This document shows, piece by piece, positions 5,538 to 19,936 of a stretch of 64,000 nucleotides of DNA. Position 1 is the stretch's first letter. The number at the start of each line of letters is the position of its first letter. The translations under genes were made by a program, and so were the position numbers. Source of the DNA: Luteolibacter ambystomatis (GTDB taxonomy: Bacteria > Verrucomicrobiota > Verrucomicrobiia > Verrucomicrobiales > Akkermansiaceae); NCBI RefSeq assembly GCF_018137965.1, contig NZ_CP073100.1, positions 2,108,001-2,172,000 on the forward strand, in the 5' to 3' direction. The notes under the pieces are model-generated. The model was not told the DNA's origin and did not search any database. It worked only from the letters and a program-made list of their open reading frames with translations.

Positions 5538-5633
5538 AAAATGTAGGGGGAAGCTCCGCTTTCCCTCTTTGAGGTCGGACATCACCCGTATTCCAGCTCC
5601 CCCCGTTCGAAAGCAGAGCTTTCGACTACATTT
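5538..5633. repeat. Inverted pair of GTAG REP hairpins overlapping the GH8 stop codon
   Basis: The left unit (5538-5565) reads AATGTAGGGGGAAGCTCCGC then TTTCCC: GTAG followed by an imperfect hairpin. The right unit (5608-5633), read on the minus strand, is AATGTAGTCGAAAGCTCTGC then TTTCG: GTAG, one base, then a perfect CGAAAGC-TCT-GCTTTCG hairpin. The TAG of the right unit is the stop codon of the neighbouring GH8 gene. The same family recurs at 45056-45163. Confidence 0.75.
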
Positions 5634-6858
5634 CCCAATAATTCCCCGTCATCACCAGCAGGCACAGCAGGTTCACCGAATCCTCATAATACTCCTGCCT
5701 CGATTTACGAGACTTCCCGTAGATCGAATCCAACAGCTTCTGGTTCTCCTGATCCAGCATCGCCGCCACTCCGAAGGGCGAGACGAAGAAGATGCTGGAA
5801 TAGTCGCTGCCCTCCACAGGCTTTCCGTCCAGCTTGTAACCCGCCTTGATCTTCGCCGCATCTCCACCGGTGGCCCTCCGGACCCACGCCGCCATCTTCC
5901 TGGCCTGCGCGGTGGACGCCGCGTTTCCATTCAGAAGCGCATCGGTCCCGATCCTCCATGGATCACGTCCGGCGTTGTAGAAATACGCGCCATCGTTCTC
6001 TCCCTCCAAAAACTTCGGCCCCGCCGGCTTCGCGGCTGAAGGCGGTTTCGCATCGATGATGAAATCCGGCAGCAGACCCGACTCCGGGCTGTAGTTCTTC
6101 TGAAGTGCATCCACCACCGCGGAGCAGTTGTCCGCCACCGTGTTCCAAACCGGATCACCGGAGAACTTCGCCCACGTCCGGAAGTGCGAGGGCAGCAGGT
6201 CCGAACTACGCGGCGTGTATTGGTTGAACTTCTTGTCATCCGCCTTCACCCAGTTGCCCAGCAGCGGCAAACGGCTTTGCGGTCCGACGCAGCCTTTCAA
6301 CTGGGCCGCGATCACCTCCTTCGCCGCCTCCTTGTAAGGAACCACCCCACCCCCGCCCCATTGCGCATGCGCCAGGATCAGTCCCTGCGCGATATCCGCA
6401 TCACCATCGAAAGCGCTGGTGCCGCCGCCATGGTCGGCAGCCTCCAGCGGCACCCGCCACTGCATCAGCCCCGGCGTCTTCTTGTCGGGATGGGCCTTCG
6501 CAAACAGATACAATCCATCGAACAACGCCCGCGCCTCCGGATCATGCCCCGCCATGATCGCCACGATCACCATGCCGTAGCCCTGCCCCTCGGACACCGT
6601 CACCCCGGACTTCGGCGGCGTCTTTCCGAACGCCACGCGATAGAGCGTCCTGCCCGTAGTCGGGTCCTTGCCCGCCTCCTTCACATAGTCCTTCTTCCAC
6701 GCGTCATAGGCGGCCCGCACGTCCGCATCCTGCTGCTCCTGCGTAAAGCCAGAAGGCCGGATCACCGCCCCCGGATACCGGACATGCGCCGGGAAGGGCC
6801 GCGTCTGGGCCGTCAGGGGTCCCGACAAAGCCGCGCACAGGATGAGGAATCGTGTCAT
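5626..6858 (-). CDS. Secreted glycoside hydrolase family 8 (endo-beta-1,4-glucanase type)
   Basis: Predicted to hydrolyse beta-1,4-glucans or xylan/chitosan-like polymers outside the inner membrane. It is 410 aa with a signal peptide (MTRFLILCAALSGPLTAQ). The GH8 acid-catalyst motif VSEGQGYGM (Glu90), the DGDADIA segment (Asp151-Asp155) and the late motif DPWRIGTD are all visible. The C terminus (LLVMTGNYWEM) matches the usual GH8 end, so the protein is full length. Its TAG stop is the TAG of a GTAG REP element. It is convergent with nusB and stands alone. The exact substrate is not predictable. Confidence 0.88.
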   Translation of the reverse strand: MTRFLILCAALSGPLTAQTRPFPAHVRYPGAVIRPSGFTQEQQDADVRAAYDAWKKDYVKEAGKDPTTGRTLYRVAFGKTPPKSGVTVSEGQGYGMVIVAIMAGHDPEARALFDGLYLFAKAHPDKKTPGLMQWRVPLEAADHGGGTSAFDGDADIAQGLILAHAQWGGGGVVPYKEAAKEVIAAQLKGCVGPQSRLPLLGNWVKADDKKFNQYTPRSSDLLPSHFRTWAKFSGDPVWNTVADNCSAVVDALQKNYSPESGLLPDFIIDAKPPSAAKPAGPKFLEGENDGAYFYNAGRDPWRIGTDALLNGNAASTAQARKMAAWVRRATGGDAAKIKAGYKLDGKPVEGSDYSSIFFVSPFGVAAMLDQENQKLLDSIYGKSRKSRQEYYEDSVNLLCLLVMTGNYWEM

Positions 6859-7019: not shown

Positions 7020-8309
7020 ATGTCGCGCTACCCCACCCGCTTCCAGCAAAAGACGCTCTGGAATGCCGCCACCGGTCTCGGGATTCTCGTGCTTGGCGCG
7101 TTGCTGGTCGGCTTCACCTGGCTGATCGGGCAGATGTTCGGTTTCCTCCAACCGGTCTTGATCCCGCTGCTGATCGCAGGCGTGATCGCCTACCTTCTCG
7201 ATCCCGTCGTCGTGTGGCTGGAGAAGCGCGGGATGAAACGGCTGTGGGCGGTGATGATCGTGTTCCTCGCCCTGCTGCTCACCTTCGGCGGCATGGCCGC
7301 GGCCCTCATGCCCGGCATCAAGAGCGGCAAGCAGACCCTCCAGAGAGTCTTCCAGCCGAACAAGCAGGCCACCCCGGACCCGACCGATGAGGATGACAAG
7401 CATCTCATTCCCCAGCTCGTCCGGTCGCTGAAGAAGCTCCGCGCCGATCACGCCACTGATCCCATCGGCTATGCGCTCGCGGAGGTGGATGATCTCGGCA
7501 AGGCGGTCGAAACGCCGTCCGATGACGAGACGCTCGAATTCCTCGAAAAGACCCGCATCGGCCGCATGTTCTTCGAAAACAAGGCCACCATCCTCTCCAC
7601 CGGCCGCACCTGGCTCAGCACCGGCACCAGCAAGGTGCTGGCCTTCCTCGGCCTCGTGCTCGGCATGATCATGGTGCCAGTCTATCTGTTTTTCTTCCTC
7701 AAGGAGTCCGCCGCCATCCGCGATCACTGGCACGACTACGTCCCCCTGAAAGCCTCGCGCTTCAAGACCGAGCTGGTCGATTGTCTGAAGGAGATCAACG
7801 GCTACCTCATCTCGTTCTTCCGTGGGCAGGTGCTCGTCGCCCTGATCGATGGCGTACTCGTCGGCATCGGCCTCACGATCTACGGCCTGCCCTACGGCCT
7901 GCTGATCGGTGCCTTCATGGCCATCCTCGGAGTCATCCCCTACATCGGCAACATCCTCTGCCTTGTGCCCGCCTGCATCATCGGCTATCTGCATGCCCAA
8001 GGCGTCGCGCCGTGGGGCCTCGGGCCGGGCGGCTACGTGATCGGCGTGGTGGCGATCTTCATCGGCGTGCAGCAGATCAATTCGCTGGTGACCGCACCGA
8101 AGATCGTCGGCGACTCGGTCGGCCTGCATCCCTTGACGGTGATCTTCTCCATGCTGTTCTGGTCCTTGGTGCTCGGTGGCTTCGTCGGCGCGCTGCTCGC
8201 CGTGCCTTTGACCGCCGCGGTGAAGGTGCTGTTCCGCCGCTACATCTGGGAACGCCAGCTCAAGGAAGACGCTGAAACCGCCGGGGGACCGCGGATGTTT
8301 GATGACTGA
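7020..8309 (+). CDS. AI-2E family (UPF0118/PerM-like) membrane transporter
   Basis: A polytopic inner-membrane protein of 429 aa. Paired hydrophobic helices lie at residues 20-80, a large cytoplasmic or periplasmic loop spans about 100-195 (with a charged PDPTDEDDKH segment), and a cluster of helices occupies 205-405. It includes the family-typical stretches FFRGQVLVALIDGVLVGIG, GVIPYIGNILCLVPA and VGDSVGLHPLTV. Members export small molecules (AI-2 in E. coli TqsA) or work as Na+/H+ antiporters, so the substrate is open. There is no clear Shine-Dalgarno. A DUF6172 gene follows 53 bases downstream. Confidence 0.88.
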   Translation: MSRYPTRFQQKTLWNAATGLGILVLGALLVGFTWLIGQMFGFLQPVLIPLLIAGVIAYLLDPVVVWLEKRGMKRLWAVMIVFLALLLTFGGMAAALMPGIKSGKQTLQRVFQPNKQATPDPTDEDDKHLIPQLVRSLKKLRADHATDPIGYALAEVDDLGKAVETPSDDETLEFLEKTRIGRMFFENKATILSTGRTWLSTGTSKVLAFLGLVLGMIMVPVYLFFFLKESAAIRDHWHDYVPLKASRFKTELVDCLKEINGYLISFFRGQVLVALIDGVLVGIGLTIYGLPYGLLIGAFMAILGVIPYIGNILCLVPACIIGYLHAQGVAPWGLGPGGYVIGVVAIFIGVQQINSLVTAPKIVGDSVGLHPLTVIFSMLFWSLVLGGFVGALLAVPLTAAVKVLFRRYIWERQLKEDAETAGGPRMFDD

Positions 8310-8852: not shown

Positions 8853-11012
8853 TCACACTCCCCGCGTCGTCGCCGCGGCGATGATCTCCCGATATACCTC
8901 CACCTCCGCCGTCTCCACGCGACGCAGTTCCGGGTCCTTGTCCATGTCCACGAAGTAGAGGCCGAAGTCCGTGTTCGGATCGAACGGATGGCCCCATTCC
9001 CGGTTGGAAGTGATCGACCAGCAGTTGTAGCCGCTCACCGGCACGCCCTTGTCGATGGCCTTCTCCACCTGCTGGAGATGCAGCTTCAGATACTCGCCGC
9101 GCGGCACACCATTCGCCTCCGGCACGCTGCCGTTCTCCACGATAAACAGCTCCTGCCCTGGAAACCAACGGTGGAAACGCCGCAAGGCATGGAACAACCC
9201 CTGCGGCCATACCGGAGCCTGGATGAACTTGCCGTGGGCCGCATCCTCCAGAGATCGGAAACGGTGCAGCTTGTGCGTCGGCAGACCCCAGTAATAGTCA
9301 AGCCCCACGAAATCCTGCGCGCCAATCGCCTCATCCGGGCAAAGCTCCACCGGCAAACGCCCGGAGGTCCCCAGATACCACCAGTTCGCATTCGCGATCA
9401 AGCTCGTCGTCCCCCAGAAGCGCCACGCCCAGTTCAGCCAGCTCGATTTCGAAGACAGCGCCTTCGCCCGCCGCGAGGGCTCCAGTGGCACGATCTCGAG
9501 CAGATCCTCATCCCCCATCACCTGGTGCGCGATGCGCCGCGCGAGCAACAGTTCAAGGCCCTCGCCACGACACGCGGGTGAAAGCCCCGGCGTGTCCTTG
9601 CGCAGACCGATGCGGATGCGGCCACGGCGGCGGATGTGCTTCATCGAGCGCCCCCGCCCTTCGCCGGGACGTTCGTTCTCCGCCGGTCCCCACAGCACCT
9701 CCGCCAGCGAAACCGGCGGCAGCTTGCCCTCATCCGATGGCGCGGCGGGCTGGATCCATGGTTCTTCCCGCCCCGCAGTCACCTCACGCTGGAACGTCGC
9801 CACCACCCGGTTCACGCGCTCCAACAGATCGCCATGGCCGTTCGGCGCGAGCACCACATAGGACTCGTCGCTCAATCCGGTGACGAGAAAGCGGAACGAC
9901 CCGCTCTCCTCCAAACCATGCGGCATCAGAAAGGGCGCGTCCCCATACACCGCGTCGACCGCTCCGACGGCCAGCGAACTACGAGCTTCATCGTAGTTTG
10001 AAAAAATCCGCTTCTTGGCGGACGGAGGCAGGTCGCGCTTCCACCCGTCCGGCTGGTTGCCGATGCCGAGCACACCCACGCGCTTGTCCGCGAGTGAATC
10101 CATCCCCTCACCCGCCCAATCCGCCTTCACCAACACCGCCTTGCCCGTCCGCAGATAGGGATCGCTCGATTCAAAACGACCATGGCGTCCGGAGGTGATA
10201 CCACCGATCACCAGATCCACCTTCGCCCGCTCGCCCACCAGCGCCCCACGCGTGGTGAACTTGAACAATGCCTCCGACAGACGGCGATGGCACGCCGCCC
10301 AGTCCATCAGCATCTGGAGCCACGTGGGGAATCCCGTCACCAGCGGGTTCACACCCACCTTCGTTTCGGAACGCCGCGCCTTGATCTTTACCCGCGCCCG
10401 CGCGTGCGCCCGGAACAGCGAGGGCACCAGCCTCCCCACCGCCGCGGCTTCCTCATCCACCTCCTCGCCGCGCGGTAGTCCCGGCGGCATGTAGTAGCGG
10501 TTCCGCCACCACGGCTTGATGTAGCCGAAGGTGAGCTGGCTCGGCTCGTTGAAAGTGATCCAGTAGTCCACCAGGCCCCCCATCGCCTCCGCCACCCGGT
10601 CCGCATAGCGGGCGAAGAGATCCGGAAACCGCTTTCCCAGCATCCCCCCGTGGTCCCTTTCCAACCATACCGGCCAGACGAAGTGGTGCAGCGTCAGCAT
10701 CACCTGCATGCCATGACTGCGGACGCATTCCGCCACCCGCCGGTAGTGCGCCAGCGCCTCCGGATCGAACACACCCTCGGATGTTTCCACCCGCGCCCAC
10801 GCCGTGGAAAAGCGGAACAACTTGCAGCCCATCGCCGCGGCCGCCGCGATGTCCTCCTCATAGCGGTTCCAGAAATCGGTGGCACGTCCGCGGGGTGAGA
10901 GGCCCTGCGTCCGCTCCCACAGGTCCCACACATCCTCATGCCGGGGATCGTGGGCTTCCACCTGATGGTCCGCATTGGCCGTGCCGAAAAGAAAGTTCAG
11001 TGGGAAAGCCAT
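8853..11012 (-). CDS. GH1 beta-glycosidase interrupted by a permuted SBP_bac_3 solute-binding domain
   Basis: The start at 11012 (719 aa) is preferred over 11090: AAGGG lies eight bases upstream and MAFPLNFLFGTANADHQVEA is the usual GH1 opening. GH1 part A (1-248) carries Gln17, His109-His110 and the acid/base Glu156 in WITFNEP. GH1 part B (about 526-719) carries DFVGLDYY, the nucleophile Glu626 in FIVENG and WSITSNREWGHPF. Between them, residues 249-525 match a family 3 periplasmic binding protein in swapped order. First comes its later portion (KVDLVIGGITSGR, SSDPYLRTGKAVLVK, ADKRVGVLG, VGAVDAVYGDAP). A Pro/Glu/Gly-rich linker (415-460) follows, then its N-terminal strand (GRIRIGLRKDTPG, GLELLLARRIA). 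There is no signal peptide, so it is probably cytosolic. Both catalytic carboxylates are kept, so it should be active. The substrate and the bound ligand are unknown. Confidence 0.85.
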   Translation of the reverse strand: MAFPLNFLFGTANADHQVEAHDPRHEDVWDLWERTQGLSPRGRATDFWNRYEEDIAAAAAMGCKLFRFSTAWARVETSEGVFDPEALAHYRRVAECVRSHGMQVMLTLHHFVWPVWLERDHGGMLGKRFPDLFARYADRVAEAMGGLVDYWITFNEPSQLTFGYIKPWWRNRYYMPPGLPRGEEVDEEAAAVGRLVPSLFRAHARARVKIKARRSETKVGVNPLVTGFPTWLQMLMDWAACHRRLSEALFKFTTRGALVGERAKVDLVIGGITSGRHGRFESSDPYLRTGKAVLVKADWAGEGMDSLADKRVGVLGIGNQPDGWKRDLPPSAKKRIFSNYDEARSSLAVGAVDAVYGDAPFLMPHGLEESGSFRFLVTGLSDESYVVLAPNGHGDLLERVNRVVATFQREVTAGREEPWIQPAAPSDEGKLPPVSLAEVLWGPAENERPGEGRGRSMKHIRRRGRIRIGLRKDTPGLSPACRGEGLELLLARRIAHQVMGDEDLLEIVPLEPSRRAKALSSKSSWLNWAWRFWGTTSLIANANWWYLGTSGRLPVELCPDEAIGAQDFVGLDYYWGLPTHKLHRFRSLEDAAHGKFIQAPVWPQGLFHALRRFHRWFPGQELFIVENGSVPEANGVPRGEYLKLHLQQVEKAIDKGVPVSGYNCWSITSNREWGHPFDPNTDFGLYFVDMDKDPELRRVETAEVEVYREIIAAATTRGV

Positions 11013-11109
11013 CGGACACCCTTCTTGTGGCCTCCGAACCTCCTGCGGACAAGCCGGAAGCTGCGTCAGTTCCGTCGCTTGCCGGCCCAATCTGCATCAC
11101 AGTGTTAGA

Positions 11110-11175: not shown

Positions 11176-11189
11176 TTTTATTTTTGCCC

Positions 11190-14100
11190 ATGAAACCCAG
11201 ACTTATCCCCCTTCTTGCCGTTATTACGTTCTGCTCGAATACCCTCGCCGCCGATGTCTCCTGGGACATCAGCACGGCCTCCGGGATCACCGGAGGAGCA
11301 GGCTCCTGGAACAACCTCGCCACCACCTGGACGACCGACAGTGGAGCCACCAACTTCGCTTGGAGCAACACGACCAATGCCGCGGACACCACCCTCTTCA
11401 GCGGCACCGCAGGCACGGTGACACTGGCCAATCCGATCAACGCCGCAGCGCTCAAGAGCACCATCACCGGCTACACCGTCGCAGGTTCCTTCCTCGGATT
11501 CGGCGCGAATCCGGGCGTGGTGGACACCAGCGCCCTGACCGCTGCGGGTGTCACCACGATCTCCACCTCCCTTGGCGGCACCGCCGGTCTCACCATCGCA
11601 GGCAATGGCGACCTCACCGCGAATGGCGGTGGCAGCAGCGGCCTTGTCACTCTTTCCGGCATCAATACGGATCTCTCCGGCGGCATTTCCATCACCTCCG
11701 GACTGGTGAATACCAACACTCCTGCCGCCTTCGGCAGCTACTCGTTCGCGGCCGGCAGTGGCAACACCCTCACGCTTTCCAACGGAGCCGGCCTCGTCAC
11801 CGCCACCACCGCCGCCAACATCCTCTACCCGCTCGGAAACAACATCGTCTTCTCCGGCGCCACCAATGCCACGCTGCGCAGCTACGGCACCCGCTTCCTG
11901 GTGCTGAACGGCCAGATCTCCGGCACCACCGGCTTCAATGTCACCGATGGCGGCACGCTCCAGCTCACCAATGCCGCCAACAGCTTCGATGGACCGGTTT
12001 CGATTCTCAACGGCGCGTTGAACGCCCGCTCCCTCGGCAATGTCGGCGTGGGCATGAGTTCGCTCGGTGCCCCCACCACCGCGGCCCATGGCACGATCAC
12101 CATCGGTTCCACCACCCTGACCGCCGGACTGATCTACAGCGGCAGCGGCGAGACCACCGACCGCGTGCTGAACTTCGCAGGTACTACAGGCCCCGTATCT
12201 CTCACCCAGTCCGGCTACGGCCAGCTCGTCTTCTCCAGCACCCCCACCTTCACCGGATCGGGGGCGAAGACCCTCACCCTCACCGGTTCCACCGTCGGCC
12301 GCGGCGAGTTCGCCGGAGCGATCGTGGACAACGGCGGAGCCACTTCCGTGACGAAGACCGGCACCGGTCGCTGGACCCTCTCCGGAAACAATACCTACAC
12401 CGGTGCCACCACTGTCAGCGCCGGCACCCTGTCCCTCACCGGCAGCAACACTTCCTCCATCAGCGTCGCCGCCGGTGCCACCCTGACCGGCTCCGGCAGC
12501 ACCACCGGCACCGTCACGCTCGCCAGCGGCTCGAATCTGCTGATCGGCAATGGTTTCATCAATAGCAACGGCATCACACCCACGGCCGTGAACCTCATCG
12601 CACGCGCGCAGTCGGTGACGATGGGTGCCAATACGATCGATGTGATGGGTTACGGCTCCGGCGGAGCACCCGCCGTACAGGACTTCAATGCCGCCTCCTA
12701 TCGCGGAGGCATTGTGGCGGATGACAACGTGAACCTGAAACTCACGCTTTCCTTCACCGCCTCGGCGCGGACATGGAATGGCACGAGCACCACCTGGGAC
12801 CTCGGCACCACTCCGGCATGGCTCGAAGGCGATACCGCCTTCTATTCCGGTGATGCGGTGACGTTCCCGGACATCGCCGGAGACACCGTTGTCACGCTGG
12901 GAGCTACGGTCGCGCCCTCGTCCATCGCGGTGACAAACAACAATGCCGCCAACTATACCATCTCCGGCAGCGGTTCCATCACCGGCACCACCGCGCTGAC
13001 GAAAAGTGGCGGCGGCTCACTGACCCTCTCCACCTCGAACACCTACACTGGTGCCACGACTGTCAGCAACGGCCTGCTCTCCGCCGCCGCGACCAATGCC
13101 TTCGGCACCGGTACCGTCACGCTCAGCGGCGGCAATCTGGGACTGGTCGGCAATACGGCGATCACGATCCCCAATACCATCACCGGCTCCGGTGGGGTCG
13201 CGGTCACCGGCACCGCCCAATCCACCTTGAGCGGAGATCTCAGCGGCTTCGCGGGCACCATCGACATCAACACCACCGGCGCGGGCAAGCTTGCGCTGAC
13301 CCCGGCGGGAGCGGGTGCCCTGCCATCCTCCGCGGTCGTCAACGTGAACGCGGCGACGACCTGCTTCCTCAATGGCACCGGAAACTACGCGAACACCTTC
13401 TATCTTCTCGGAGCCTCCAATACCGAGAACCTTGGCGCGCTGCGTGTGGATGCGGGCACCATCGTCTCGGGCAGCGTGGTGCTCGGCGCGAACTCCAGCG
13501 TCGGTGCGGTTTCCGGCAGCGGGGAAATCAGCGGCATCATCAGTGAAGTGGGCGGCGCCCGCTCGCTGACGAAGCAGGGCGCGGGAACGATCGTCCTCTC
13601 CGGCGCGAACAGCTACAGCGGCAACACCACCATCACCTCCGGCACGCTCTCGCTGGCCAATGCCAGTGCCGTGCCGTCCACCGGCTCGCTCACCTTCAGC
13701 TCCGGCACGGCGGTCGGCGTGCTCGGCACCCTGAACATCGGCAGCTATTCCCCGCAGTTCACCGGATTGACGGTCAGCTACAATCCCAACAGTACTTCCG
13801 CCGCCGCCAGCGCCGTCCTCGCCGGTCCCGGCACCCTTGCCATCCAAGGGTCATCGGACTTCAGCGTCATCAACAATTCGTCTGTCACTCCGGGAGCGAC
13901 CGCCTGGCAGGTGCTGCTCGACGCCAGCAATCTCCGCAACCTGGTTTACAACGCACCGTCCAACAAGGTCGCCATCGGGGGCAATGGCAATGCCCGCAGC
14001 GGCAATCTCACGATGGGCACCAACAGCACCTTCACCGCCTCAAGCTTCGAATTGCAGAACGGGATGCCGGGCAACAACACGGCGAAAACCAGCACCATCA

Positions 14101-15590
14101 ACCTCGGCGTGAACACCACGATCAACGCCAACACGTTGATCGTTCTTGCCAGCAACAACAAGGACAGCGCCACCCTGCAGTTCCGCAGCGGTCTTGTGAA
14201 ACCCACCGTCACCATCCGCGGCACCAATGGCACGGACCGGGCCGCTTGGAATGTCGGAACGGCATTCACCGGTACTGGCACCGCTCTGGTGGACCTCACC
14301 ACCGGAGTCACCGGGGGCAGCCAGCTCGATGCACTGGTGGGTACCCTTCAGATTGGCCAGAAAACCGCTGGCGCGAACGTGGCCAACTCCAATTTTCTGA
14401 TGGGCGGCGGCACGCTGGATGCCACCTCCATCAACCTCGGCAACCTCACCATCAATGGGGGAACCTTGAATGCCACGCTCTCGATCACGGGAGGGACCGT
14501 GAAGGTGGGCACGCTCACCATGGGCACTCAGACCGCCGGCACGCTGAACTCCACACTCAATCTGAATGGAGGTGCCATCCTGGCCGCCCAGACCGTTCAA
14601 AACGGAACCGGAACCGCCACCCGCAATCTCAACTGGAACGACGGCACCATCACCACCTTCGACTCCGCCACCGATCTCACCATCGGCAGTCCGATCAAGC
14701 TCGCCGCCACCGGCACCCACACTTTCAACATCCCTACCGGCCGCACGGCGACGGTCAACGGAGTGGTCGGCGAAGCCGCCGCAGGAGGTGCGATCACCAA
14801 AACCGGAGATGGCAAGGTGGTGCTGTCCAACACCAACACCTATACAGGTGATACCTTGGTCAATGGCGGCACACTCTCGCTCGGAGCCGCCTCCCTGGCG
14901 GACACGGCCGATGTGAAAATCACCAATGCCGCGACTCTCGAACTCACCCATGCCGCCATCGATACGATCGATGAACTCTACATCGACGGCGTCCAGCAAT
15001 CGACCGGCATCTGGGGTTCGCTCGCTTCCACCGCCCCGCACAAGACGGACCGCATCACCGGCACGGGACTGCTGCGGGTCACCACCGGTGTCGCCACCGA
15101 TCCGTATGCGGACTGGGTCATCACCAGCAACCTGACCACCGGTGTCAATGATGCGAAGAACCAGGATCCCGACCAGGACGGCCTCAGCAACTTCTACGAG
15201 TATGCCTTGGACGGCAATCCACTCTCGGGTACCCGCAGTGGCAAGGTGGTCGCCAAGGTCGCCACCCTCACCATCAACGCGACTCCCCAGAAGGTGCTCA
15301 CACTGACCCTGCCGGTGAGAGGCACTCCGTCCTTCAGCGGCCAAACGGACCTGACATCCACTGCTACGGAAGGTGTGATCTATCACATCCAGAGCAGCGC
15401 CGATCTCACGGACTGGACCTCGATTCCGGTACAGGAAGTTCCATCCGGCCAGCAAGGTTCCCTCCAGACCAGTCTGGCATTGCCTCCGATCACCGCGGGG
15501 ATGACGTATCGCTCCTTCTACGTCCCAGGTTCGGACCCGACCCTGACGCCCAAGCTGTTCATGCGTGCCAAAGTCGAGGAATCCCCCTGA
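11190..15590 (+). CDS. Giant secreted autotransporter-associated beta-strand repeat protein (paralogue 1)
   Basis: 1466 aa from the ATG at 11190; a TTG at 11184 is also open. A signal peptide (MKPRLIPLLAVITFCSNTLAA) precedes a long Gly/Thr/Ser-rich beta-solenoid. At least four passenger-associated repeat motifs of the form TKTGTGRWTLSGNNTYTG are visible, with a late one at ITKTGDGKVVLSNTNTYTG. A cap (DELYIDGVQQSTGIWG) follows, then a Ca-binding-like DPDQDGLSNFYEYALDGNP and a C-terminal module (IQSSADLTDW ... LFMRAKVEESP). No beta-barrel translocator and no PEP-CTERM are present, so export past the outer membrane must use another route. Likely a surface adhesin or matrix protein; no enzymatic domain is recognised. 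It is paralogous to the next gene. Confidence 0.8.
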   Translation: MKPRLIPLLAVITFCSNTLAADVSWDISTASGITGGAGSWNNLATTWTTDSGATNFAWSNTTNAADTTLFSGTAGTVTLANPINAAALKSTITGYTVAGSFLGFGANPGVVDTSALTAAGVTTISTSLGGTAGLTIAGNGDLTANGGGSSGLVTLSGINTDLSGGISITSGLVNTNTPAAFGSYSFAAGSGNTLTLSNGAGLVTATTAANILYPLGNNIVFSGATNATLRSYGTRFLVLNGQISGTTGFNVTDGGTLQLTNAANSFDGPVSILNGALNARSLGNVGVGMSSLGAPTTAAHGTITIGSTTLTAGLIYSGSGETTDRVLNFAGTTGPVSLTQSGYGQLVFSSTPTFTGSGAKTLTLTGSTVGRGEFAGAIVDNGGATSVTKTGTGRWTLSGNNTYTGATTVSAGTLSLTGSNTSSISVAAGATLTGSGSTTGTVTLASGSNLLIGNGFINSNGITPTAVNLIARAQSVTMGANTIDVMGYGSGGAPAVQDFNAASYRGGIVADDNVNLKLTLSFTASARTWNGTSTTWDLGTTPAWLEGDTAFYSGDAVTFPDIAGDTVVTLGATVAPSSIAVTNNNAANYTISGSGSITGTTALTKSGGGSLTLSTSNTYTGATTVSNGLLSAAATNAFGTGTVTLSGGNLGLVGNTAITIPNTITGSGGVAVTGTAQSTLSGDLSGFAGTIDINTTGAGKLALTPAGAGALPSSAVVNVNAATTCFLNGTGNYANTFYLLGASNTENLGALRVDAGTIVSGSVVLGANSSVGAVSGSGEISGIISEVGGARSLTKQGAGTIVLSGANSYSGNTTITSGTLSLANASAVPSTGSLTFSSGTAVGVLGTLNIGSYSPQFTGLTVSYNPNSTSAAASAVLAGPGTLAIQGSSDFSVINNSSVTPGATAWQVLLDASNLRNLVYNAPSNKVAIGGNGNARSGNLTMGTNSTFTASSFELQNGMPGNNTAKTSTINLGVNTTINANTLIVLASNNKDSATLQFRSGLVKPTVTIRGTNGTDRAAWNVGTAFTGTGTALVDLTTGVTGGSQLDALVGTLQIGQKTAGANVANSNFLMGGGTLDATSINLGNLTINGGTLNATLSITGGTVKVGTLTMGTQTAGTLNSTLNLNGGAILAAQTVQNGTGTATRNLNWNDGTITTFDSATDLTIGSPIKLAATGTHTFNIPTGRTATVNGVVGEAAAGGAITKTGDGKVVLSNTNTYTGDTLVNGGTLSLGAASLADTADVKITNAATLELTHAAIDTIDELYIDGVQQSTGIWGSLASTAPHKTDRITGTGLLRVTTGVATDPYADWVITSNLTTGVNDAKNQDPDQDGLSNFYEYALDGNPLSGTRSGKVVAKVATLTINATPQKVLTLTLPVRGTPSFSGQTDLTSTATEGVIYHIQSSADLTDWTSIPVQEVPSGQQGSLQTSLALPPITAGMTYRSFYVPGSDPTLTPKLFMRAKVEESP

Positions 15591-15677: not shown

Positions 15678-15744
15678 CAGTTTTTGACAGGCCCGGCCGT
15701 TTGCGACCGCAGGGGATGGCGTGCAATTTCCCGACGCTTCGCAT
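15678..15744 (+). promoter_or_regulatory. Upstream module shared by the two tandem beta-repeat genes (copy 2)
   Basis: This is the homologous block to 11110-11175: CAGTTTTTGACA at the 5' end, AGGGGATGGCGTGCAATTTC in the middle and CGCTTCGCAT at the 3' end, ten bases before the ATG at 15755. TTGACA at 15683-15688 is a good -35 candidate, but no convincing -10 follows at the normal distance. Conservation between paralogues that diverged strongly in coding sequence suggests a functional control region. Confidence 0.45.
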
Positions 15745-15754
15745 TCCCGGCATC

Positions 15755-18700
15755 ATGAAATCCAAGATCCTCCCGCTTTTCGTCGTCGCTTGTTTCTCAC
15801 CCACCCTCCTTGCCGATACCATCTCCTGGACCGGCACCACCACGGGTGATTGGACCACTCCGGCCAACTGGAGCAACAATACGGCGCCCGCCGCAGGCAA
15901 CGCCTACGCGGCGACCGGCACCGGCAAGACCGTCAACTCCCCCGCCACCGGCAACGTCACCTTCGCCGGTGACTCGCTCGCGGTTGCCAACGGCTCCGCG
16001 CTGAAACTGATCACCACCAACGGTGGCGGCACGCTTGTCTCCACCTTCACCATTCCCAACCTGACGCTCGATGGCGCGACGGTCTCCCCGGCCAGTTCTC
16101 TCGGCTCGGTGACCCAGACGCTGGCCAATCAGCTGGCACTGGCCAATGCCGTGACTGTCGAGATGAACGATGCAGGCGGCTTCACCAACGGCCTCACGTT
16201 CAACAATGGTTATGTGGGCTCCGGTTCGCTCACCATCAAGCGCGGCGGCACCACCGGCAGCAGCCGCAATGTCGTCATCGGCGGCACGAATTCCACCGCC
16301 GCCTACAGCGGTGCCGTGAGTGTCACGGGCAATTCCAGTGGCAAGACCGTCGCCGTGACCATCAACCCGGGCACCGGCTGGGGCGGAGGCAATCTCACCA
16401 TCGGACAATGGTCGTCCGTCACCCTCGGTGCGGACACCACCGGTACCGGCGGTGTCACGGTCGCGGCGAACGGCACGCTCCAGATCGGCAATGCCGCGGG
16501 GACGGGATCGCTGGCAAAGGACATTCTCAACAACGGCTCGGTCGCTTTCAACCGCACCGGAACCCTCGTCCACGGCGGCATCATCTCCGGCACCGGTTCC
16601 GTCAGCCTGAATGGTACGGGTTCCATCGTACTAACGGGTGCCAATACCCACACCGGCGGCACCACGCTGAATTCCGGCATGCTCGTGCTGGGCGGCGCGG
16701 ATGCCATCGGCTCCACCGGCAATCTCACTCTCAAGGGCGGCACGCTCCAGTTCAGCCCGTCCAACAAGACCGACTACAGCAGCCGCATCCACATCGCGGA
16801 TACCAGTGGCTCCGGCGCCAGTGTCACCCTCGATACGACCAGCCGCTCGGTGGTCTTCGCCAATCCGCTCACCATCGATGCGACCGGCACCGTCACCCTG
16901 ACCAAGACCGGTATCGGCACGCTCACCCTGGAAGGCGCGAACACCTACACCGGCGCAACGACGGTCAATGCCGGCACCCTCAAGCTGAACGGTTCCCTGG
17001 CTTCTCCGATCACCGTGGCCTCCGGAGCCACCCTGACGGGCGGTGGCAGCACCACCGGCAGCCTCACGCTGTCCTCCGGCTCCAGCCTGCTGGTGGGCAA
17101 CAGCCACATCACCGCAAGCGGTGTGTCCGCCGCTGCCGTGACGCTGCTCCCCGATGCCGCTTCCGTGGTGCCGGGCACGAACCTTTTCACCGTTGTCGGC
17201 TACAACGGTGCGGGCACTCCGATGGTGAGCGAGTTCTCCACCGCCGGATTCCGCAACGGTTTCATCGCGGATGATGCCGGGAATTTCGCCATCCTCTTCC
17301 AATTCGATGCGGCGGCCCGCACCTGGGGCGGCGTCACGGGCACTTGGGATCTGGGCGGCAGTGCTTCCTGGACCGGTGGTGACAATCTGTTCTTCAACGG
17401 AGACACCGCCACCTTCGGAGACATCACCGCCGACAACCTGGTGACCCTCACCGGCACCCTGGCCCCGGCAGCGGTCACCATCGCGAACAACACCACCTTC
17501 GGCTACACTTTCAGTGGCACCGGTTCGATCGCCGGAAACACCGCTCTCAGCAAGACCGGTCCGGGTCCGCTGGTCGTCTCCACCAGCAATACCTACACCG
17601 GTGGCACCACGCTCAATGGCGGCACCACCACCGCCACCGCTGCCAATGCCCTTGGTACCGGCCCGGTGACGATCACCTCCGGCACCATCGCGCTGGATGG
17701 CGGCACCCTGCCGAACACCATCAGCGGCACCGGCGACATCCTCGCCACCGGCACTTCGCAGGGTACTCTCTCCGGCAACCTGAGCGGACTGACCGGCACG
17801 GCCACCGTGTCCACCACTGCCGGCGGCAAGCTGGCCATCACCGGTGCGACCGTGGCTCCCACCACCCTGCCGGTTACCCTCTCTTCGGGAGCGACGCTTT
17901 ACGCGGCGAACGGTGCCACCATCGCTGGAACCATCAGCGTGACCGGCACCGGCAATACCGAAGGCCTCGGTGCCATCCGCCTGGACACCGGAGCTACCGC
18001 CAGCGGCGCGATCACCCTCAACAACGACTCCACCATCGGTAGCAACAGCGGCACCGGCACCATCTCCGGTGCCATCGGTGAAGCCGGTGGCGCGCGCGCT
18101 CTGACGAAAGTTGGCAGCGGCACGGTCATGCTCAGCGGGGCCAATACCTTCACGGGTATCATGAACCTCTCCGGCGGCACGCTGCTGCTGGGTGCGTCGA
18201 ACACGTTGGCAACGGTATCAAAACTCAACTTCACCACCACCGGCTCCACACTCGACATCGGCTCCACCAGCCCGACCTTCCCCATCCTGACCGCCAACAG
18301 CGTCGGCACTTCCAGCGTGACCCACAACGTGAAGGGAACCGGCACGCTTACCGTGAACGGCGCCTCCGACCTGCTGATCCAGAACCCGGGCAGCAGCAGC
18401 CTCGGCACCACCCTCACCATGGACATGAGCGGTCTCGCCAATCTGGTTTACAACCGTTCCTCCAACAGCGTCATCATCACCGGCACCGGCAACAACCGTC
18501 CTGTCACCGCGACGCTGGCGAACAACACGACGATCACCGCCGCGAACTTCCACATCCAGAACGACAGCTCGGGCAACAACACCGCCCACACCGCCACCGT
18601 CAATCTGGGCAACACCACCACGCTGAACGTCAACAACCTCAACCTGCTGAACAACGCCAGCTCCCGCGACAATGCGACGCTCCGTTTCCGCAGCGGCGGG

Positions 18701-19936
18701 GTCAATCCGACGCTGGTCATCCGCGCCGCCGATGGCACCGGCCGCGCCAACATCAAGGTCGGCGCAAGCAGCACGGTGACCAACAGCGGCGTCCAAACCG
18801 GAGCCGTCGATTTGCTCACCGGTGTCAGCGGCACCAGCAAACTCGATGCCCTCGTTGGAACGCTCAGCATCGGTGATGGCCGCAACACCTCCGCCTCCAC
18901 CTACTCCTTCATCATGGGCAGTGGCACGCTCGACGCCACCGCCCTGATCGTCGGCAACAAGAACGGCGTGGCCGGCACACCGAATGCCAACTTCAGCGTC
19001 ACCGGTGGCACCGTGAAGGCGACCACCGTCACTCTCGGCGTGGTCGCTTCCGGAGGCACCGGAGTGAACTCCACGCTCACGCTCAACGGCAGCTCCGTTC
19101 TAGCCGCGCAGACCATCGCCACCGGCACCGGTGCGGGCACCCGCACCTTTTCCTGGAACAGCGGCACGATCACAACGCTGGATGCCAGCACAGACCTCAC
19201 CGTCAGCAGCGCGCTCAAACTCGCCGCCACCGGCAATCATGTCTTCGACATCGGCACCGGCCGCACCGGCACGGTAAGCGGCATCATCAGCGAAGCCGCC
19301 GCAGGTGGTGTGCTGACCAAGGCGGGAGCAGGTACGCTCGTCCTCTCCGGAGTGAACACTTACACCGGTGACACGCTGGTGACCGGCGGCACGCTGACGC
19401 TGTCGAATGCGTTCCTCGCCGATACCGCGGATGTGAAGCTGAGCAACGGCGCGGTGCTCAATCTGAACCACGCCGCCACCGACACCGTCGATGAACTCTA
19501 CATCGATGGCGTCCAGCAGGCTCCGGGCACCTGGGGTTCCCTCACCTCCTCCGCCACCCACAAAACCGCCCGCATCACCGGCACCGGCCTCCTGCAGGTG
19601 ACCACGGGTGCGAGCGCCAGCAGCTACTCCACCTGGGCCGCCACCAATGCGGGCGGACAACCGGCGGACGGCGACTTCGACAGCGACGGCGTGAAGAACG
19701 GCGTGGAATACTTCTTCGGAGCAACTCCCGGCTTCACCGCCAACCCGGCCACCGTCAACGGCACGATCACCTGGCCGAAGGACGCCACCGCCGCCGCCAC
19801 TCCGATCGTCGAAACCTCCGCCGACCTGATCACCTGGACCCCTGTCACCTTCACGGACAACGGCACCTCGATCCAATACACCATCCCCACCGGTGATCCG
19901 AAGCGCTTCGTCCGCCTCCGCGTGACGGTGCCGTAA
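15755..19936 (+). CDS. Giant secreted autotransporter-associated beta-strand repeat protein (paralogue 2)
   Basis: 1393 aa from the ATG at 15755, chosen because the signal peptide MKSKILPLFVVACFSPTLLA begins there; in-frame codons upstream lie in the conserved leader block. The body is Gly/Thr/Asn-rich beta-solenoid with repeats such as LTKTGIGTLTLEGANTYTG and LTKAGAGTLVLSGVNTYTG. As in its upstream neighbour, the C-terminal part has a DELYIDGVQQAPGTWG cap, a DFDSDGVKNGVEYFFG Ca-binding-like loop and a terminal module (VETSADLITW ... RFVRLRVTVP). No translocator barrel is encoded. Expected at the cell surface or released. A strong terminator follows. The function is structural or adhesive by inference only. 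Confidence 0.8.
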   Translation: MKSKILPLFVVACFSPTLLADTISWTGTTTGDWTTPANWSNNTAPAAGNAYAATGTGKTVNSPATGNVTFAGDSLAVANGSALKLITTNGGGTLVSTFTIPNLTLDGATVSPASSLGSVTQTLANQLALANAVTVEMNDAGGFTNGLTFNNGYVGSGSLTIKRGGTTGSSRNVVIGGTNSTAAYSGAVSVTGNSSGKTVAVTINPGTGWGGGNLTIGQWSSVTLGADTTGTGGVTVAANGTLQIGNAAGTGSLAKDILNNGSVAFNRTGTLVHGGIISGTGSVSLNGTGSIVLTGANTHTGGTTLNSGMLVLGGADAIGSTGNLTLKGGTLQFSPSNKTDYSSRIHIADTSGSGASVTLDTTSRSVVFANPLTIDATGTVTLTKTGIGTLTLEGANTYTGATTVNAGTLKLNGSLASPITVASGATLTGGGSTTGSLTLSSGSSLLVGNSHITASGVSAAAVTLLPDAASVVPGTNLFTVVGYNGAGTPMVSEFSTAGFRNGFIADDAGNFAILFQFDAAARTWGGVTGTWDLGGSASWTGGDNLFFNGDTATFGDITADNLVTLTGTLAPAAVTIANNTTFGYTFSGTGSIAGNTALSKTGPGPLVVSTSNTYTGGTTLNGGTTTATAANALGTGPVTITSGTIALDGGTLPNTISGTGDILATGTSQGTLSGNLSGLTGTATVSTTAGGKLAITGATVAPTTLPVTLSSGATLYAANGATIAGTISVTGTGNTEGLGAIRLDTGATASGAITLNNDSTIGSNSGTGTISGAIGEAGGARALTKVGSGTVMLSGANTFTGIMNLSGGTLLLGASNTLATVSKLNFTTTGSTLDIGSTSPTFPILTANSVGTSSVTHNVKGTGTLTVNGASDLLIQNPGSSSLGTTLTMDMSGLANLVYNRSSNSVIITGTGNNRPVTATLANNTTITAANFHIQNDSSGNNTAHTATVNLGNTTTLNVNNLNLLNNASSRDNATLRFRSGGVNPTLVIRAADGTGRANIKVGASSTVTNSGVQTGAVDLLTGVSGTSKLDALVGTLSIGDGRNTSASTYSFIMGSGTLDATALIVGNKNGVAGTPNANFSVTGGTVKATTVTLGVVASGGTGVNSTLTLNGSSVLAAQTIATGTGAGTRTFSWNSGTITTLDASTDLTVSSALKLAATGNHVFDIGTGRTGTVSGIISEAAAGGVLTKAGAGTLVLSGVNTYTGDTLVTGGTLTLSNAFLADTADVKLSNGAVLNLNHAATDTVDELYIDGVQQAPGTWGSLTSSATHKTARITGTGLLQVTTGASASSYSTWAATNAGGQPADGDFDSDGVKNGVEYFFGATPGFTANPATVNGTITWPKDATAAATPIVETSADLITWTPVTFTDNGTSIQYTIPTGDPKRFVRLRVTVP

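Follow-up and report, generated by a model that had tools for sequence, protein, structure and literature searches.

The window analysed here is a 64,000-nucleotide stretch of the Luteolibacter ambystomatis genome, which is a single contig of 5.32 Mb. Its minus strand carries, between positions 8853 and 11012, the uninterrupted 719-aa frame that an earlier note on this DNA had reported; the plus strand of the same interval contains stops. Because the frame stays open upstream as far as a TTG at 11090, from which the protein would count 745 aa, where translation begins is not certain. The protein is a GH1 glycosidase with a permuted domain of the periplasmic binding protein (PBP) type set into it, and the parts and neighbours of its gene are as follows.

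8853..11012, minus strand: whole gene, 719 aa plus stop (translated minus-strand frame)
10284..11012, minus strand: GH1 part A, residues 1-243, through beta-strand 5 and the next helix (Pfam PF00232)
10545..10547, minus strand: codon of the acid/base Glu156 (FNEP), Glu in 101 of 102 homologs
10146..10229, minus strand: lobe 1 segment a, residues 262-289 (NCBIfam GlnH, insert profile)
9867..10145, minus strand: lobe 2, residues 290-382 (6gpm match, deletion limits)
9939..9941, minus strand: codon of Asp358, counterpart of the ligand Asp in amino-acid PBPs (alignment)
9771..9866, minus strand: lobe 1 segment b, residues 383-414 (profile alignment with 5eyf; helix 394-414)
9651..9770, minus strand: linker between the native ends of the PBP, residues 415-454 (low model confidence)
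9453..9650, minus strand: lobe 1 segment c, residues 455-520, the native PBP N-terminus (profile on 5eyf and 1xt8)
8856..9452, minus strand: GH1 part B, residues 521-719 (Pfam, model)
9135..9137, minus strand: codon of the nucleophile Glu626 (VENG), Glu in 102 of 102 homologs
5626-6858, minus strand: GH8 glycosidase gene, two genes from the fusion (neighbour scan)
7020-8309, plus strand: AI-2E family transporter gene, between the GH8 gene and the fusion (neighbour scan)
11184-15590, plus strand: large PATR protein, 1468 aa (passenger-associated-transport repeats)
15701-19936, plus strand: large PATR protein, 1411 aa (passenger-associated-transport repeats)

Pfam GH1 (PF00232) matches the protein in two stretches (E 9.4e-50), with residues 2-243 of part A aligned to profile positions 4-240. 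An AlphaFold model of the whole protein, built with 36 sequences, has a pLDDT of 84.7 and a pTM of 0.79; it displays the (beta/alpha)8 GH1 fold and can be superimposed on 1uyq with a Z of 38.3 and an rmsd of 3.3 for 391 aligned residues. Part B opens in the model with a helix of 26 residues (524-549), which follows the last PBP helix. Nine subsite -1 positions, whose roles we presume from known GH1 structures, are each kept in 101-102 of the 102 homologs in our alignment, from which three fragments below 470 aa were left out; they comprise both catalytic glutamates, correctly placed by the earlier note, and seven further residues (Q, H, N, Y, W, E, W). The gene product is a (beta/alpha)8 glycosidase of family GH1 whose subsite -1 residues are all in place, and a retaining activity is predicted from sequence and model. 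In fold, subsite -1 residues, acid/base and nucleophile it resembles the GH1 beta-glycosidases (PF00232; 1uyq, 6z1h, 4r27). It departs from them in reading SITSNREWG where GH1 enzymes usually have a DNFEW stretch, which is present in the outgroup rows, and in the 280-residue domain inside its barrel, the like of which is named in none of the best 60 solved GH1-like chains.

The domain is inserted after beta-strand 5, and its parts run from the native C-terminal part through a linker of about 40 residues to the native N-terminal part. NCBIfam GlnH recognises residues 264-410 at positions 83-232 of its 248 (E 1.5e-9). Segment a begins midway in the native PBP fold, residues from 20 onward of the insert model mapping to PBP chains from about residue 59, and segment b is the end of that fold. 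A profile of 30 inserts aligns insert residues 17-171 with residues 73-228 of the glutamate-binding protein 5eyf, and insert residues 220-274 with residues 17-75; since the two halves fall in reverse order on 5eyf, the segments are swapped. In the swapped part the best-scoring chain with this profile, 4zv1, is a weak match (i-E 0.95), and 5eyf (1.3e-4), 1xt8 and 4z9n are better, insert residues 201-276 falling on residues 27-105 of the 1xt8 chain. The homolog L062, taken by itself, places residues 14-175 on 72-233 and residues 225-292 on 8-75 of a PBP chain, and its two pieces match Pfam SBP_bac_3 at positions 52-131 and 1-56. The insert of the window protein does not match this Pfam profile in either the given or the native order, whereas deeper homologs do; matches were found in five of the eight homologs scanned, four of them exceeding the curated cut-off.

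Residues 243-526 modelled alone gave a pLDDT of 78.5 and a pTM of 0.75; in the linker, residues 423-429 and 445-453 have pLDDT values below 50. The best Foldseek matches of the insert model are proteins that bind glutamine or other amino acids (8eyz, E 3.4e-10), and VIA, with Z up to 12.7, places model residues 20-183 on residues of about 59 to 225 of a GlnH-like chain. Both comparisons cover model residues 20-183, and the native N-terminal part is placed by the sequence profile; taken together, they describe a two-lobe type II PBP fold. Residues 290-382 of the window protein are where domain 2 of TmArgBP, solved in isolation (6gpm), superimposes, with a Z of 11.3 and an rmsd of 2.5 for 88 aligned residues. 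The domain after beta-strand 5 is a nested, circularly permuted binding domain of the family-3 amino-acid type. It is in this anatomy that the earlier note proves right: a GH1 enzyme interrupted by a family-3 binding domain agrees with Pfam GH1, NCBIfam GlnH and the insert profile, the swapped segments agree with GlnH and with the profile on 5eyf, and the structure prediction it had proposed returned a PBP fold over model residues 20-183; the search of residues 249-525 with SBP_bac_3, also proposed there, is the one described above as giving no match. We likewise see no signal peptide on reading the protein sequence.

With SBP_bac_3 binding proteins such as GlnH, 5eyf, Peb1a and ArgBP the insert shares the two-lobe fold and, in its deep homologs, the ligand-binding Arg, Thr and Asp; unlike them, it is permuted, nested in an enzyme and devoid of a visible signal peptide. 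The fusion does not belong to the PBP family in the strict sense, for the segment order native to SBP_bac_3 is swapped in the window insert and in its homologs, and neither an export signal nor a transporter partner was found, the window neighbours scanned including no ABC-transporter gene. In two homologs from the phylum of an Eremiobacterota-titled genome (L123 and L148), the native N-terminal segment holds an additional low-complexity stretch of about 60-70 residues that resembles an in-frame repeat element.

An order as unusual as this could be suspected to be an artefact of assembly or annotation in which two genes were fused. We give this practically no credence, because the genome is a single contig and full-length copies of the architecture are found in 28 of the 145 genomes from the family Akkermansiaceae (one of them, G137, with an internal stop) and in other phyla; recurrence across species and phyla rules the artefact out. 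The search for further GH1-SBP-GH1 proteins that the earlier note had suggested thus yields them in many species, at full length. Genomes of the relatives include Luteolibacter, Haloferula and Akkermansiaceae MAGs. Among 337 genomes drawn from the phylum of the window, eight match, all of them Akkermansiaceae. Of 148 genomes in the phylum to which an Eremiobacterota-titled genome led, 52 give a match at 1e-60, and in 33 it is continuous and full-length. The phylum reached through a Chloroflexi-titled genome, which holds genomes titled Chloroflexi, Anaerolineae and (L062) Proteobacteria, has seven matches in 301 genomes, namely four full-length proteins, one fragment and two insert-free proteins. 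The GH1-PBP arrangement is therefore old and common to at least three groups of bacteria. As the fusion is restricted to one family within the phylum of the window, we infer that the Akkermansiaceae gained it horizontally. No relative was found on the 13 stretches of viral contigs examined, nor, at E 1e-30, among plasmids searched with the L062 protein.

Counted between identical flanking alignment columns, three insert-free sisters (L081, L158 and L159) have 66-91 residues at the place of insertion, compared with 304 in the window protein. The earlier note had held that excising residues 249-525 would rejoin a normal GH1 enzyme. The barrel is indeed interrupted there, but such an excision does not exactly reproduce the natural insert-free form, in which 66-91 residues remain; these are perhaps the pre-insertion site or a remnant. 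The tree places the three sisters beside L077, inside the Chloroflexi-titled group. Grouping them with the outgroup instead is not rejected (p-AU 0.22), so that a single insertion early on and loss at a later stage are both possible.

The ligand site of the insert differs between the Akkermansiaceae and the other bacteria. Four positions, an Arg, a Thr, an Asp and a Ser/Thr, presumably bind the carboxylate and amino group of an alpha-amino acid, as we take from work on LAO and GlnH. Outside the Akkermansiaceae, where 46 full inserts were counted after one frame-broken row had been left out, the ligand Arg is present in 46/46, the preceding Thr in 45/46, the Asp in 41/46 and the lobe-2 Ser/Thr in 38/46. 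The 40 full inserts of the Akkermansiaceae all have the ligand Asp, and only two of them have R at the canonical Arg column; the helix carrying this Arg is shorter by three residues, 30 of 41 rows have an Arg close by, the lobe-2 Ser/Thr has become Gly in 36/40, and the second Thr is also changed. The closest solved relatives of the insert bind Glu, Gln, Arg or Asp, and the ancestral ligand was probably an alpha-amino acid. The Akkermansiaceae pocket appears remodelled, and given the changes at the canonical Arg column and at the lobe-2 Ser/Thr, the window protein may bind something else, bind otherwise, or bind no longer. A sugar, which the earlier note had offered beside an amino acid as the ligand sensed, finds no support: no sequence or fold match to a sugar-binding PBP occurs among the best-ranked matches, which are amino-acid binders, an argument that is weak for being drawn from best-ranked lists.

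Lobe 2 is kept within a full insert in 86 of 102 homologs and is absent in 12. The 12 deletions begin and end very nearly at the hinges: the last residue kept ahead of the gap corresponds to residues 286-290 of the window protein and the first one kept beyond it to 377-386, with a few replacement residues in between in five of the 12. As 6gpm maps to residues 290-382, these excisions follow the domain boundary, and lobe 1 is retained in every case. Parsimony on a tree of the GH1 part only (78 rows, after two had been left out) counts seven state changes, six of which read as losses of lobe 2; this suggests about six separate losses, on a quick tree with several weak forks. A single clade for the six lobe-1-only rows of the Eremiobacterota group, a grouping chosen after the tree had been viewed, is rejected (p-AU 0.001). 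Since lobe 2 has been lost repeatedly, gating would be dispensable for whatever keeps the enzyme. Outside the Akkermansiaceae, eight of nine lobe-1-only inserts keep the Arg, so that its conservation is no proof of a two-lobe ligand site. According to passages of PMC7589609, the isolated lobe 1 (D1) of TmArgBP still binds arginine; by analogy, and in view of the Arg kept in those eight inserts, the lobe-1-only forms may possibly retain a half-site. Like the 12 homologs, dissected TmArgBP D1 (6gpc, 7a99, 6y16) is a lobe 1 without lobe 2; unlike them, it is a laboratory construct in native order and outside any enzyme.

The losses are also what would be expected if the insert were a structural relic, a rigid PBP add-on that no longer binds a ligand, least of all in the Akkermansiaceae, with lobe 1 stabilising the barrel or making an oligomer contact and lobe 2 disposable. 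The remodelled Akkermansiaceae site and the escape of the window insert from Pfam recognition agree with this, as do the substitution rates, lobe 2 evolving faster than GH1 in all five pairs that possess it. Those rates are nevertheless low. When the window protein is compared with its closest relative, to which it is 91 percent identical, the five insert segments have dN/dS values of 0.02, 0.13, 0, 0.13 and 0.06 and GH1 has 0.06-0.07; for lobe 2 dN/dS is 0.13 in this pair and 0.15-0.33 in four others, values for such short segments being noisy (0 to 0.61). As no segment of the closest pair exceeds 0.13, the window insert is not decaying freely and is under purifying selection. Moreover, the Arg and Asp kept outside the Akkermansiaceae, the Asp kept in all 40 inserts within, and the full inserts of the 86 homologs with lobe 2 are at odds with a mere relic, which we consider a serious if unlikely explanation.

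We favour, tentatively, gating by a ligand that ancestrally was probably an alpha-amino acid, with lobe 1 as a fixed part of the enzyme and lobe 2 as an optional lid. Lobe 1, with both of its ends anchored in the barrel, would be permanent, and lobe 2 would be movable. Ancestrally, lobe 2 would close onto lobe 1 around a cytosolic alpha-amino acid (Glu, Gln or related), and the movement would be transmitted through the helices joining lobe 1 to the barrel, altering how accessible the pocket is on its aglycone side, or how it is shaped there, and so making glycoside hydrolysis ligand-dependent. Parts of PMC3056771 place the end of beta-strand 5 in a Thermotoga GH1 enzyme at the pocket floor near subsite +2, on the aglycone side. 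That the insert follows this strand, and that the ligand-site Arg, Thr and Asp are kept outside the Akkermansiaceae, speaks for gating; the remodelled Akkermansiaceae site and the loss of lobe 2 in 12/102 homologs speak against gating of the window protein itself. With its pocket rebuilt, that protein, if still gated, would answer another ligand or bind otherwise, and lineages without lobe 2 would be ungated or operate with a half-site. From sequence, model and analogy we infer that the fusion may function as a natural ligand-gated glycosidase. Somewhat more speculatively still, this would be a family of cytosolic glycosidases that reads the level of free amino acids through its nested PBP and ties hydrolysis to nitrogen status, the ligand having later changed (Akkermansiaceae) or the lid been cut off (lobe-1-only, ungated).

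The regulatory domain of the lytic transglycosylase MltF is of the SBP_bac_3 type. Like the fusion, for which gating is a proposal, MltF is a carbohydrate-active enzyme found in nature, and a regulatory domain switches it; this domain, however, is an N-terminal tandem, neither nested nor permuted, and MltF is a cell-envelope enzyme of another catalytic fold. According to parts of PMC10746161, muropeptides trigger its active conformation. Engineered fusions of PBPs with glycosidases and lactamases are described as ligand-gated in the abstracts of PMC4896006 and PMC3375305. RG13 (MBP with permuted TEM-1) and XynA-XBP resemble the window protein in nesting binding protein and enzyme, and RG13 also in permutation; they differ in being man-made, in having the enzyme placed into the binding protein, and in their enzyme families. 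We found no earlier description of a natural permuted PBP nested in a GH1 barrel among the titles listed in searches of open-access literature, and the main text of a domain-insertion survey (PMC13114784) contains no mention of the PBP or glycosidase terms searched. With GH1 enzymes, amino-acid PBPs, tandem regulatory domains and engineered nested switches known, what appears to be new, judged from sequence, is the natural permuted nesting in GH1. If gated, the fusion would be nature's equivalent of the permuted PBP-enzyme switches that have been engineered, nesting and permuting binding protein and enzyme being the laboratory recipe for such switches, and it would set a periplasmic-type sensor in an apparently cytosolic enzyme. 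The natural series of full inserts with a canonical site, full inserts with a rebuilt site, lobe-1-only forms and insert-free sisters opens to direct testing the origin of such a switch, its change of ligand and its dismantling.

The position after beta-strand 5, on the aglycone side, would also suit a PBP that captures substrate, binding the aglycone (for example of a glycosylated amino acid or an opine-like conjugate) and passing it to the barrel, thus setting specificity and not acting by allostery. Relatives of the insert bind amino acids, and some with solved structures bind conjugates of a sugar and an amino acid, as SocA does with glucopine or deoxyfructosylglutamine. Versions without lobe 2 persist, however, and neighbouring genes give no consistent functional clue: when 58 loci were clustered by neighbour genes, on ORFs picked by a mechanical rule that may overlook genes that are small or misread, the fusion itself occurred in 53, the next commonest cluster, a short-chain dehydrogenase, in seven, and the commonest neighbour cluster among the Akkermansiaceae loci in six. 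We judge capture of an amino-acid aglycone improbable and rank it below the structural relic, which in turn ranks below amino-acid gating. The short-chain dehydrogenase gene adjoins the fusion in seven of 24 loci outside the Akkermansiaceae (L108, L110, L111, L117 and L125 included), often head-to-head, and a gene for a GMC-type oxidoreductase was seen by eye beside or near the fusion in L107, L112 and L121.
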